DNA from: Chryseobacterium capnotolerans
GTDB taxonomy: Bacteria; Bacteroidota; Bacteroidia; Flavobacteriales; Weeksellaceae
Length of the DNA: 64,000 nucleotides
Direction of reading: 5' to 3'
Assembly (NCBI RefSeq): GCF_021278965.1
Contig: NZ_CP065589.1
Location: forward strand, 1,555,001-1,619,000
Positions 21,400 through 52,407 of the stretch are shown one piece after another. Position 1 is the first letter of the stretch. Each line of letters starts with the position of its first letter. The notes beneath the pieces were generated by a model. It saw nothing but the letters and a program-made list of their open reading frames with translations, did no database searches and was not told the origin of the DNA. A program made the position numbers and the translations under genes.

Positions 21400-21479
21400 A
21401 TTTTATCGAAGATAAAATCTTAGCGCCTTAAAGCACAACGTTTATCAATTAATTTTGCGCCCTTTGCGCTTGCCAACCG
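21400..21479 (+). repeat. dispersed repeat family C, copy 1
   Basis: A TTTTATCGAAGATAAAATCT hairpin, then TAGCGCCTTAAAGCACAACG and a TTTGCGCTTGCCAACC end. It is the same family as 34180-34261 and the copy split by the IS110 element. Confidence 0.75.
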
Positions 21480-29978: not shown

Positions 29979-30034
29979 GTTGGAAATCGCAAAGACGCAA
30001 GATTATTGATAGACTTTGTGTTTTATAGCGCAAG
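29979..30034 (-). repeat. dispersed repeat family C, copy interrupted by the IS110 element (left part)
   Basis: GGAAATCGCAAAGACGCAAG through TATAGCGCAAG is the reverse complement of the 3' two thirds of repeat C. The missing part, GATTTTATCTGCGATAAAAT, resumes at 31406 on the other side of the insertion sequence. Confidence 0.7.
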
Positions 30035-30111
30035 ATTCTGTGTTAATCTGCAAATAATATTTATATTTTTTTGTAAATTTGTTTTTTAAGTCGGCCTAGA
30101 GCTAGACTCTG

Positions 30112-30149
30112 TAGCGTGCTATACTATCTCAGTTTTCACGCTATTTTTT
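30112..30149 (+). terminator. inward-facing terminator-like hairpin in the IS right end
   Basis: TAGCGTG / CACGCTA stem (30112-30118 and 30137-30143) followed by six T on the plus strand. It may shield the element from rightward transcription entering from the S9 gene side. Confidence 0.45.
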
Positions 30150-30176
30150 GATTTATATTTACCGTCATAAACGGTT

Positions 30177-31154
30177 TCATTTTTTAAAAAGAATATAGAT
30201 CAATTCTAATATTTTTCTTTGGATTGCTACTAAAGCCTTCATTTTTATTCCATGTTTTGAAGTGAGTCTTATATAAACTTCTTTGAAGTTATCATCCCAC
30301 TTCACAATTGTTAAAGCCGGCAAAAACAAACATTTCCTTAACATTCTATTTCCTTTTTTTGATATCCGTGATTTACCTTTTACCGACGTTCCAGATTGTT
30401 TTTCTCTAACATCTAACCCTGCATAACTTGATAATTGAGACTTGTTTCTAATCAGTTCAAAGCCATTGGTCTCTCCCAAAACAGTAACCGCAGTTAAAAC
30501 ACCAACTCCCGGTATTGTTGTAAGTCGTTCTATCAATTGTTTTATCACAGGATTAGTATTGATAATAGTATCGATATCTTTCTTTATTGCTTTTTCTTGA
30601 GCATTGAGCAAATTCATACGAGCTTGCATTCTTTCTATACTTTTTAAATGAGGAGAAGCTTGAATAGTTTCTGCATGAAGCTGATTTTTTATCACATTCC
30701 GCTCCTGAACAATTTGATCGCGCTCTCTGGTAAGCTGTTGCAGCTCATTATAAGTCTGATCAGGTTTTTTCCAATGATTTAATTTTCTTTCAAGACCGAA
30801 CTGAGTAATAGCCTGAGAACAACTTTTATCAGTTATCGTTTTTATATCAAGAGTTCTTAGGTAGCTACTTATTTTATTGGGCAAAACGATATAGACCTTT
30901 TTATTATTCTCAGCAAGATAATAAGCGAACTTCTGATGATAAACCCCTGTGGCTTCCATAACATAGTGAATTTCCTGATCTTCAACACTTTGTTTTTCAA
31001 TCCAATTAATCAATAATGGGATTCCAACATCTGTGTTTTTAAATACCTTATAAGCTAGAAATTTTATAGTTTGATCTTCATATAGACAACCTAAAGTAAC
31101 TACTAATTCTTTTTGAGACACATCTATACCGGCTACTTGTTTTAATACTTTCAT
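30177..31154 (-). CDS. IS110 family transposase (RuvC-like DEDD plus serine recombinase-like domain)
   Basis: A 325-residue recombinase. The N-terminal RuvC-like domain shows Asp11 in AGIDVSQ, Glu67 in VMEATGVYHQ and the acidic residues around KTITDKS (Asp103, Asp109); which of these complete the DEDD set I cannot fix by eye. A predicted coiled coil spans about 132-195. The C-terminal transposase domain has the helix-hairpin-like IPGVGVLTAVTVLGE and the signature SGTSVKGKSRISKKGNRMLR, with Ser254 as likely catalytic serine. The protein is full length and the frame unbroken, so the element may be active. Confidence 0.95.
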   Translation of the reverse strand: MKVLKQVAGIDVSQKELVVTLGCLYEDQTIKFLAYKVFKNTDVGIPLLINWIEKQSVEDQEIHYVMEATGVYHQKFAYYLAENNKKVYIVLPNKISSYLRTLDIKTITDKSCSQAITQFGLERKLNHWKKPDQTYNELQQLTRERDQIVQERNVIKNQLHAETIQASPHLKSIERMQARMNLLNAQEKAIKKDIDTIINTNPVIKQLIERLTTIPGVGVLTAVTVLGETNGFELIRNKSQLSSYAGLDVREKQSGTSVKGKSRISKKGNRMLRKCLFLPALTIVKWDDNFKEVYIRLTSKHGIKMKALVAIQRKILELIYILFKK

Positions 31155-31179
31155 CTTTTATTACTTTTTAAGTGAGATA

Positions 31180-31388
31180 TCTTCCTTCGTCTTTTCTCCT
31201 GATTGGATATTCTGGATATTAAATGAGGTTTTTAATTCCTTACATTCTGCTCTGACTCTAAAAGATAAAAAAGAATGAGGTCGTTTCTTGCGCCGAATAT
31301 GTTTCTTTGAACTATTGGATTTTTATTCAACTCTCATTCTTATTCACTTTATGGCTAAGATAATATTTGAGATAAAGCAAATTATAAC
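31180..31388 (-). ncRNA. predicted bridge RNA of the IS110 element
   Basis: Read 5' to 3' on the minus strand, the left end folds by eye into three stem-loops. They are a 5' hairpin (CTTTAT / ATAAAG, 31377-31347), a target loop closed by AAGAATGAG / CTCATTCTT (31341-31271) with inner stem AATAGTT / AACATATT, and a donor loop closed by TCTTTT / AAAAGA (31265-31190) with inner stem GGAATTAAA / TTTAATATCC. The target loop carries AAAATCC on its 5' side and GCGCAAG on its 3' side, matching the occupied site. The donor loop carries CAGAAT and AGGAGA, matching the element ends. The ends of the RNA are estimates. Confidence 0.6.
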
Positions 31389-31393
31389 TTATA

Positions 31394-31401
31394 CAAACAT
31401 A
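31394..31401 (-). promoter_or_regulatory. -7 box at the extreme left end of the IS, completed only in the circular form
   Basis: TATGTTTG on the minus strand, four bases inside the element end counting the CT core. In the integrated state no TTTG lies at the -33 position. If the right end is joined to the left end, TTTG from ATTATTTGCAG falls 20 bases upstream, giving TTTG-N20-TATGTTTG. Confidence 0.5.
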
Positions 31402-31552
31402 GGAGGATTTTATCTGCGATAAAATTGAATGTTGCATATATTTGTCTCGCAGATCTCACAGATTTCGCAGATTTTTAATTCGTAGTTTTTTTCCTAAAGA
31501 GTTCGTATTATAGAAAAAGCTATTGTTCCATAGATTAATTATAAGATAACCA

Positions 31553-34179: not shown

Positions 34180-34261
34180 CAATTTTATCGAAGATAAAAT
34201 CTTTGCGTCTTAAAAACATAAAGTTTTTCAATATTCCTTGCGACTTTGCGCTTTCCAACAA
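34180..34261 (+). repeat. dispersed repeat family C, copy 2
   Basis: AATTTTATCGAAGATAAAAT followed by CTTTGCGTCTTAAAAACATA and ending TTTGCGCTTTCCAAC. It is an uninterrupted reference for the copy split by the IS110 element. At the equivalent insertion point it reads GATAAAATC-TT-TGCGT. Confidence 0.75.
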
Positions 34262-52273: not shown

Positions 52274-52348
52274 AGTGGCATTAGTTTATTGTTTCTGTTG
52301 GATTTACAGCAATAATTCTGCCGATTTTAATATAAGAGATAAAAAAGC

Positions 52349-52387
52349 AAAAAGGCAAAATAGCTGGATGTGCTATTTTGCCTTTTT
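52349..52387. terminator. perfect 16-bp terminator after the APC permease gene
   Basis: AAAAAGGCAAAATAGC (52349-52364) pairs with GCTATTTTGCCTTTTT (52372-52387), just beyond the permease stop on the minus strand. Confidence 0.88.
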
Positions 52388-52407
52388 AATGTTGTTATGT
52401 ATTGTTT

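Follow-up and report, generated by a model that had tools for sequence, protein, structure and literature searches.

A predicted bridge RNA with guides matching the insertion site in the left end of an IS110-group element of Chryseobacterium capnotolerans

Introduction

What does the left end of an IS110-group element encode ahead of its transposase gene, and do the letters of that end account for the place in which the element sits? The question is raised by a 1.4-kb jumping gene within a 64,000-nucleotide stretch of Chryseobacterium capnotolerans DNA (the window), in which a predicted guide RNA precedes the transposase gene. Recombination guided by bridge RNAs is a recently described system, known from IS621 and its relatives, and in the available parts of the two reports (PMC11208160, PMC11208158) IS621, a member of the IS110 family, carries a left-end RNA with a target loop and a donor loop whose sense and antisense guides are arranged around a CT core. 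An earlier note on this DNA proposed the same arrangement here. We put the probability at about 95% that the left end encodes a bridge RNA whose target loop fits the insertion site on both sides of the CT, whose donor loop fits both ends of the element, and which would guide the transposase.

The element and its insertion site

The element, its core and its target are located as follows.

30035-31405, minus strand: IS110-group element, core to core, 1371 bp (three-copy genomic alignment and orthologous empty sites)
31404-31405, repeated at 30033-30034: core dinucleotide, AG on the plus strand, bounding the element
31406-31424, minus strand: left target, REP-like palindrome TTTTATC-gca-GATAAAATC (18 genome places with at most one mismatch)
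30028-30032, minus strand: right target TGCGC (sequence and empty sites)

The genome holds three copies of the element, two of which are identical across 1371 bp while the third is short by one base. The left flanks read AAAATC-CT in two copies and AAAAT-CT in one, the right flanks read CT-TGCGC in two and CT-TGCAC in one, and the junctions with the element ends are AAAATC-CT-CCTATG on the left and CAGAAT-CT-TGCGC on the right. Insertion is precise at the CT core and leaves CT on both junctions, as judged from the three copies and from orthologous empty sites, which join 30034 to 31406. For the window copy, five of the 12 empty-site loci retrieved were inspected; all five align across the junction, three of them with an intact AAAATC-CT-TGCGC, and one (L197) is 86.1% identical over 1244 columns across the junction. 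A query made of the joined flanks matched 127 of 173 genomes of the genus, and among the matches listed it was mostly the repeat part that was covered.

The target sequence recurs in the genome as a dispersed repeat that reads TTTTATC-gca-GATAAAATC and continues as approximately TTGCGCCTTAAAA. With at most one mismatch the repeat occurs at 18 places in the genome, three of which are occupied, and with at most three mismatches it occurs at 68 places vs 18 for a reversed control pattern. Two more unoccupied left halves of the repeat, each with one mismatch, are found in the window (21402-21419 and 34184-34201). Five relatives (L040, L042, L046, L055 and L097) also lie in palindromic targets, which read CCCGATAG-CT-ATCGGG or CCGATAG-CT-ATCGGA.

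Relatives were collected with a scan of genome contigs, of which the best 80 of 424 were kept, and with further searches at the genus, family and order level. The best 80 of 424 belong to the Bacteroidota apart from one Ignavibacteria bin, and their transposases are 55-73% identical in the best segment. Viral contigs contributed three loci only (L105-L107) and plasmid records eight, all below 60% identity. The left end begins with CTCCTATG in 94 of the 97 loci having a left end. The 99 loci with left ends represent 79 distinct sequences, and exclusion of L014, L051 and L059 gave 73 distinct RNA regions, 62 of which were aligned, the window element included; those left out were near-duplicates (L017, L024, L073, L086, L090, L092, L096 and L100) or ragged (L052, L070 and L103).

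Several partial or unusual loci were also observed. The genome of the window contains a remnant without a transposase (L130/L145, approximately G000:C1:3227699-3227850) that consists of the left end, the leader and the target arm and continues as TTTTTTAT-CT-TGCGTC, with the right target straight after an internal CT and a shared 5-nt ATCTT; it is probably an internal deletion derivative. Two elements in another genome (L016 and L018 in G258) form a direct tandem with 9 nt between the right core of one and the left end of the next, and the second has a shorter transposase frame. Solitary target-arm copies in genome G024 were considered and rejected as biology, since where the pieces break they mostly match one another over about 121-151 nt with 94-100% identity; the solo left-end and right-end pieces of this genome (L127, L129, L131-L133 and L134-L144) are probably assembler contig ends that were joined in one record.

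Architecture of the predicted RNA

The only RNA reported by Rfam in the whole window at curated thresholds is one tRNA. The body of the predicted bridge RNA and its helices are as follows.

31165-31352, minus strand: predicted bridge RNA body, 188 nt (fold, covariance model and 62-sequence alignment)
31344-31349, minus strand: closing helix P1, 5' strand AAGTGA (minimum free energy fold; helix 1)
31170-31175, minus strand: closing helix P1, 3' strand TCACTT (minimum free energy fold; helix 1)
31330-31341, minus strand: P2, outer stem of the target arm, 5' strand with an invariant bulged A (RNAalifold, covariation)
31269-31281, minus strand: P2, 3' strand (RNAalifold, covariation)
31310-31316, minus strand: P3, inner stem of the target arm, 5' strand AATAGTT (RNAalifold, covariation)
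31296-31303, minus strand: P3, 3' strand AACATATT with an invariant bulged A (RNAalifold, covariation)
31261-31265, minus strand: P4, outer stem of the donor arm, 5' strand TCTTT (helix 4)
31180-31184, minus strand: P4, 3' strand GAAGA (helix 4)
31254-31256, minus strand: P4b, 5' strand GTC (helix 5, 100% paired)
31189-31191, minus strand: P4b, 3' strand GAC (helix 5)
31232-31239, minus strand: P5, inner stem of the donor arm, 5' strand GGAATTAA (helix 6)
31214-31222, minus strand: P5, 3' strand with an invariant bulged A (helix 6)

The 188-nt RNA folds with a predicted energy of -33.8 kcal/mol (z -2.59), which was equalled by 1 of 200 shuffles, and the covariance model R1 scores it at 160.9 bits, the identical copy L001 being part of that model. 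When no structure was supplied, RNAalifold found 37 pairs in the 62 RNAs, 31 of them with compensatory change. In the full named structure of 43 pairs, 95.7% of 2647 cells are paired across the 62 aligned RNAs, vs at most 51.8% in a slid control that keeps relatedness. The earlier note had made its stems depend on compensatory changes, and such changes are present: 37 of the 43 pairs have changed on both sides, in 410 cells vs 107.4 in shuffles, none of 500 shuffles being as high. The structure of the RNA is thus conserved with compensatory changes.

Both inner stems that had been proposed, AATAGTT with AAC(A)TATT and GGAATTAA with TTAAT(A)TCC, each with a single bulged A, were recovered. Four unpaired columns are A in 62 of 62 RNAs and two of these are the bulges in the inner stems. 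Two other parts of the proposed fold had to be replaced. The donor arm had been closed with TCTTTT and AAAAGA, a pairing that is present in 72.8% of cells vs 72.0% after shuffling and is indistinct from the shuffled and slid controls; the closing that is supported is TCTTT with GAAGA together with GTC with GAC. Three successive stem-loops had been drawn, the first of them in the leader, and instead two arms are enclosed by AAGTGA and TCACTT. The leader is variable in length (11-62 nt among 61 distinct leaders), and that of the window (31345-31405) folds barely better than shuffles (z -0.64; 51 of 200 as good), and a 5' stem-loop was rejected on these grounds. Helix P1, to which the alignment was not fitted, is 91.1% paired with compensatory change in 5 of 7 pairs, and it is kept with different letters in two distant loci outside the alignment that were read by eye, L015 (GATAAACAA with TTGTTTATC) and L105 (ATAGGCC with GGTCTAT). 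A further match to the model in the window at 52302-52394 (22.7 bits, E 0.022), which lies beside a terminator-like hairpin, was rejected as probably due to chance.

Target guides and flanking DNA

The two target guides are found in the first arm.

31317-31323, minus strand: left target guide AAAATCC, which has the sense of the left target and of the first core base (sequence and swap test)
31287-31293, minus strand: right target guide GCGCAAG, antisense to CT-TGCGC (sequence and swap test)

Their placement on the 5' and 3' sides of the first arm agrees with what had been read there before. The guides of relatives with other flanks were compared with their own flanks and with foreign flanks in a swap test, in which the junctions were placed from the conserved ends, independently of the guides, and in which a locus was required to have a flank and a distinct guide and, for the right side, a CT in register as well; of the 62 loci, 54 qualified on the left and 44 on the right. 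The right guide matches its own flank at 5 of 5 positions in 37 of 44 loci and at 4 of 5 in the other 7 (mean 4.84 of 5, vs 1.64 for foreign flanks). The left guide was given its highest score among three registers, in the same way for own flanks and for foreign ones, and it matches its own flank at a mean of 5.2 of 7 positions (n=54) vs 2.84 for foreign flanks. None of 20,000 permutations reached the own-flank sum on the left or on the right, so the guides differ among relatives and fit their own flanks: from one Bacteroidota relative to another, the target guides vary in step with the site of insertion. Single loci are not always diagnostic, as 31 of 54 on the left and 29 of 44 on the right beat 95% of foreign flanks, and similar targets are often common to relatives.

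Within the genome of the window, the right guide fits the three copies at 5/5, 5/5 and 4/5 positions. The left guide of the window is one A longer than its target, and it fits the three copies at 6, 5 and 5 of 7 positions in the usual registers and at 6 of 7 in all of them when one further register is allowed; for the flank of the window copy the fit is 5 of 7 in the usual registers of the clade and 6 of 7 one register on. That further register is the best one in 5 of 49 clear cases.

It could be argued that the left end merely forms a structured leader for regulation of the transposase mRNA and that the guide matches are due to chance or to AT-rich repeats. The structured stretch does directly precede the coding sequence, and A/T-rich guides fit AT-rich flanks easily, since 205 of 7495 CT sites in the window (both strands) reach the left score. 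None of the 7495 sites reaches both scores, however, and exchanging guides among relatives abolishes the match on both sides, with the right guide at 5/5 in most loci. We regard a leader of this kind as extremely improbable and retain the bridge RNA, whose readable specificity, as first suggested for this DNA, is supported by the guide swap, the covariation of the stems and the orthologous empty sites.

The donor side

The donor guides lie in the second arm.

31244-31249, minus strand: left donor guide CAGAAT, reading in the sense of the element's right end (present in 61 of the 62 RNAs aligned)
31196-31200, minus strand: right donor guide AGGAG, antisense to CT-CCT at the left end (present in 61 of the 62 RNAs aligned)

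The second arm had been read as carrying CAGAAT and AGGAGA; CAGAAT and AGGAG do match the ends of the element, and the last A falls at the handshake position, outside the match to the core plus left end. Donor guides and ends are nearly invariant in the clade, so that there is little to covary. A single lineage of 42% identity (L014 and its close copy L122) has the right end CAGTAC with the guide CAGTAC and the left end CTCGT with the guide ACGAG. The AT preceding AGGAG varies among relatives; in IS621 the equivalent letters pair with the left end.

The base after the right donor guide (31195) is A in 59 of 62 RNAs and the donor base left of the core, at a presumably equivalent position, is T in 50 of 50 rows. 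According to the accessible IS621 literature, recombination fell dramatically when the donor handshake position facing dT7 carried an A.

Transposase and active site

30177-31154, minus strand: transposase coding sequence, 325 aa (Pfam, NCBIfam, phmmer and clade count)

The protein matches the Pfam models PF01548 (76.1 bits, cut-off 29) and PF02371 (82.2 bits, cut-off 21.3) and the NCBIfam model NF033542 (182.5 bits, cut-off 140), and phmmer determined that it is homologous to the transposases of IS621 and ISCro4. D11, E67, D109 and S254 align with IS621 D11, E60, D102 and S241, the assignment of D11 being based on likeness to the ISCro4 row of the phmmer alignment. S254-G255 aligns with the SG of IS621; the serine is invariant in two alignments of 12 and 6 sequences, and in 78 of 81 proteins a simple pattern picked up this conserved Tnp-domain serine. 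C112 occupies the place of IS621 D105. The D at this fourth DEDD position is missing from 78 of the 81 distinct proteins examined, 76 of which have a TD motif and two (L046 and L103) ND, and it is kept in three more distant proteins (L014, L105 and L107). Since the DEDD tetrad is incomplete, membership of the IS110 family is taken from the curated models and the clade is treated as a variant.

IS621 D105 mutants are inactive, according to the portions of the IS621 literature available, and with a Cys at position 112 the RNA could be a genuine bridge RNA of a dead element that has been immobile since the enzyme lost its fourth acidic residue. The residue is absent from 78 of the 81 proteins examined, yet three near-identical copies occupy guide-matched sites in this genome, which points to recent activity despite C112, and the flanks of a 9,263-bp relative are 100% and 99.86% identical to those of an empty site. 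A dead element is thus considered very unlikely.

Predicted promoters and a proposed mechanism

Two predicted promoter boxes lie at opposite ends of the element.

31394-31401, minus strand: TATGTTTG in the left end, predicted -7 box (TAnnTTTG) of a circle-junction promoter
30051-30054, minus strand: TTTG in the right end, predicted upstream promoter box, 20 nt before TATGTTTG after end joining

When the ends of the window element are joined in the model, TTTG-N20-TATGTTTG results, and the predicted junction promoter would be complete. The TTTG or TTG at the junction is taken by us to be the upstream box, on the basis of a spacing rule that we assume to apply. In the joined ends of relatives, the distance from TTG to TATGTTTG (or TATGTTTA) is exactly 20 nt for 44 of the 53 distinct right ends. 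A spacing of 17-23 nt is seen in 46 of 53, vs an average of 4.2 and a maximum of 11 for that range with shuffled right ends (1000 shuffles; the promoter-box controls here and below ignore relatedness). The count covered 53 of 54 right ends, L052 having no -7 box and being unscored, and in L176, L177 and L179, where ACAGAATCT is present twice, the occurrence fitting the right guide was chosen as the right end. In the available part of PMC9723704, TAnnTTTG is the -7 consensus of a flavobacterium and the box covers -12 to -5.

A second source of the RNA is also conceivable, namely that it is made mainly from an internal promoter in the left end with TAnnTTTG about 14-15 nt before P1, in which case inserted copies would express the RNA too. 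Of the 61 distinct leaders, 37 contain an exact internal box, which in 28 cases is placed at -14 or -15 from P1, far above the average of 2.2 and the maximum of 8 in 1000 letter shuffles of the leaders, and the span of the box from -12 to -5 would let the start fall at P1. The leader of the window, however, has just TATCTTAG at that place and contains no exact internal TAnnTTTG, the exact box was not found in six short leaders (11-14 nt), and the circle-junction promoter is complete in the window. The internal promoter as main source is therefore a tentative and somewhat doubtful proposal, and the circle junction is kept as the predicted promoter in what follows.

The steps after RNA binding are modelled on IS621. 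Excision of the element to a circle would join its right end with its left end, and the joined ends would rebuild a Bacteroidetes-type promoter, TTTG-N20-TATGTTTG, that would drive the RNA. Two transposase dimers may then hold the two arms of the RNA, cleavage would occur at the CT core by means of the serine and the RuvC metal site and be followed by strand exchange as in IS621, and the RNA would direct the transposase to insert the excised circle in a REP-like extragenic repeat.

Cargo-bearing relatives

In one sub-clade the right end is a long way downstream of the transposase gene. Both ends were found in 8 of the 18 loci examined, and in the other 10 no guide-matched right end was found in the sequence searched downstream. 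Between the transposase and the right end, these loci (L178 in G044; L176, L177 and L179 in G072, G002 and G060; L180; L181; L086; L096) contain transport and metal-related genes. The core-to-core sizes are 11,943 bp (three genomes with the same flanks), 9,263, 3,250, 3,249, 3,252 and 3,252 bp. The 9,263-bp element encodes eight Pfam-matched proteins (Na+/H+ antiporter, SBF, metallophosphoesterase, chromate transporter, DoxX, DUF6428, ArsR-type regulator and sulfate permease). In the 11,943-bp element, 9 of 10 scanned proteins were matched (SBF, GNAT, phosphatase-like below the cut-off, metallophosphoesterase, flavoprotein, DUF6428, two ArsR-type and MerT/HMA). In the 3.25-kb elements a protein is called a putative sulfate permease on the basis of likeness.

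The joined target of the cargo-bearing relatives is found at 40 places in 36 of 320 genomes of the family. One such empty site (L196) matches the flanks of L178 with 100% identity over 1512 bp and 99.86% identity over 1429 bp, the two matches meeting at the core, and this filled and empty pair differs by 9,263 bp exactly at the CT core. The simplest reading is that the 9,263 bp were inserted as one unit; a later gain of cargo is possible. A ThiF-like gene, confirmed by the Pfam ThiF model for one gene beside L178, adjoins 11 of 15 empty sites, so that these sites may all belong to one hot spot within a larger mobile region and the insertions may not be fully independent.

Comparison with known systems

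The features that the window element has in common with IS621, as described in the available parts of PMC11208160 and PMC11208158, are an RNA in the left end with the target loop in the first arm and the donor loop in the second, a loop whose 5' side has the sense of the left half-site and whose 3' side is antisense to the right half-site, a CT core, RuvC and Tnp domains with a serine, and insertion in REP-like repeats. Conserved flipped-out A residues in the arms of IS621 (PMC11208158) resemble the invariant A observed here. The two differ in that IS621 has a 5' stem-loop whereas the RNA described here has the long-range closing helix P1, in that the promoter is sigma70-like in IS621 and a predicted Bacteroidetes-type motif here, in that the fourth DEDD acid is required in IS621 and absent here, and in the A at the donor handshake position of the RNA. 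New relative to the IS621 model are thus helix P1, the predicted circle-junction promoter (TTG-N20-TATGTTTG) and the lost fourth DEDD acid. The closest solved homologue by sequence is the ISCro4 transposase (PDB 9t56, E 2.6e-24), with which the comparison was made by protein alignment only.

In the accessible text of PMC11187229, the seekRNAs of IS1111 and IS110 elements are likewise guide RNAs from a non-coding end that fit both target strands. They differ in that the RNA of IS1111 members usually follows the gene and has its guides in the opposite order, and the cargo in the text available is artificial; the window RNA lies upstream of the transposase gene and not, as in the IS1111 group, downstream at the right end. 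Insertion into repetitive extragenic palindromes is shared with the REP-targeting insertion sequences of PMC1525189, which concerns other elements and hosts and has no mention of a guide RNA in the part available. Among the matches listed, the titles and abstract beginnings (subscription papers lay outside this scope) named neither IS110 bridge RNAs in Bacteroidetes nor naturally cargo-bearing IS110 elements. The sections available of PMC7371123 and PMC11092175 mention both IS110 and passenger genes, the passengers being tied to Tn3-family or general transposons, and in those of PMC11208160 the strings 'bacteroid' and 'flavobacter' were not found and 'cargo' occurs once, for an experimental insert.

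Implications

The left end most probably encodes a bridge RNA, predicted from fold and alignment, with guides that can be read. We lean towards a broader reading in which a Bacteroidota-wide clade combines a P1-closed two-armed RNA, a DED site, a circle-junction Bacteroidetes promoter and palindromic-repeat targets with natural RNA-addressed ion- and metal-transport cargo of about 2 to 10 kb. A guide-matched repeat would explain why the element is located in a REP-like repeat. It is likely that the addressing of the element is readable and, if so, it would also be rewritable. This clade provides 62 aligned natural RNAs whose guides can be read and whose architecture is unlike that of IS621. 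It also has an active site without a residue on which IS621 depends, and it supplies natural examples of cargo of several kilobases that lies exactly at the core defined by the guides. It thereby becomes possible to test how general the features of the IS621 model are.
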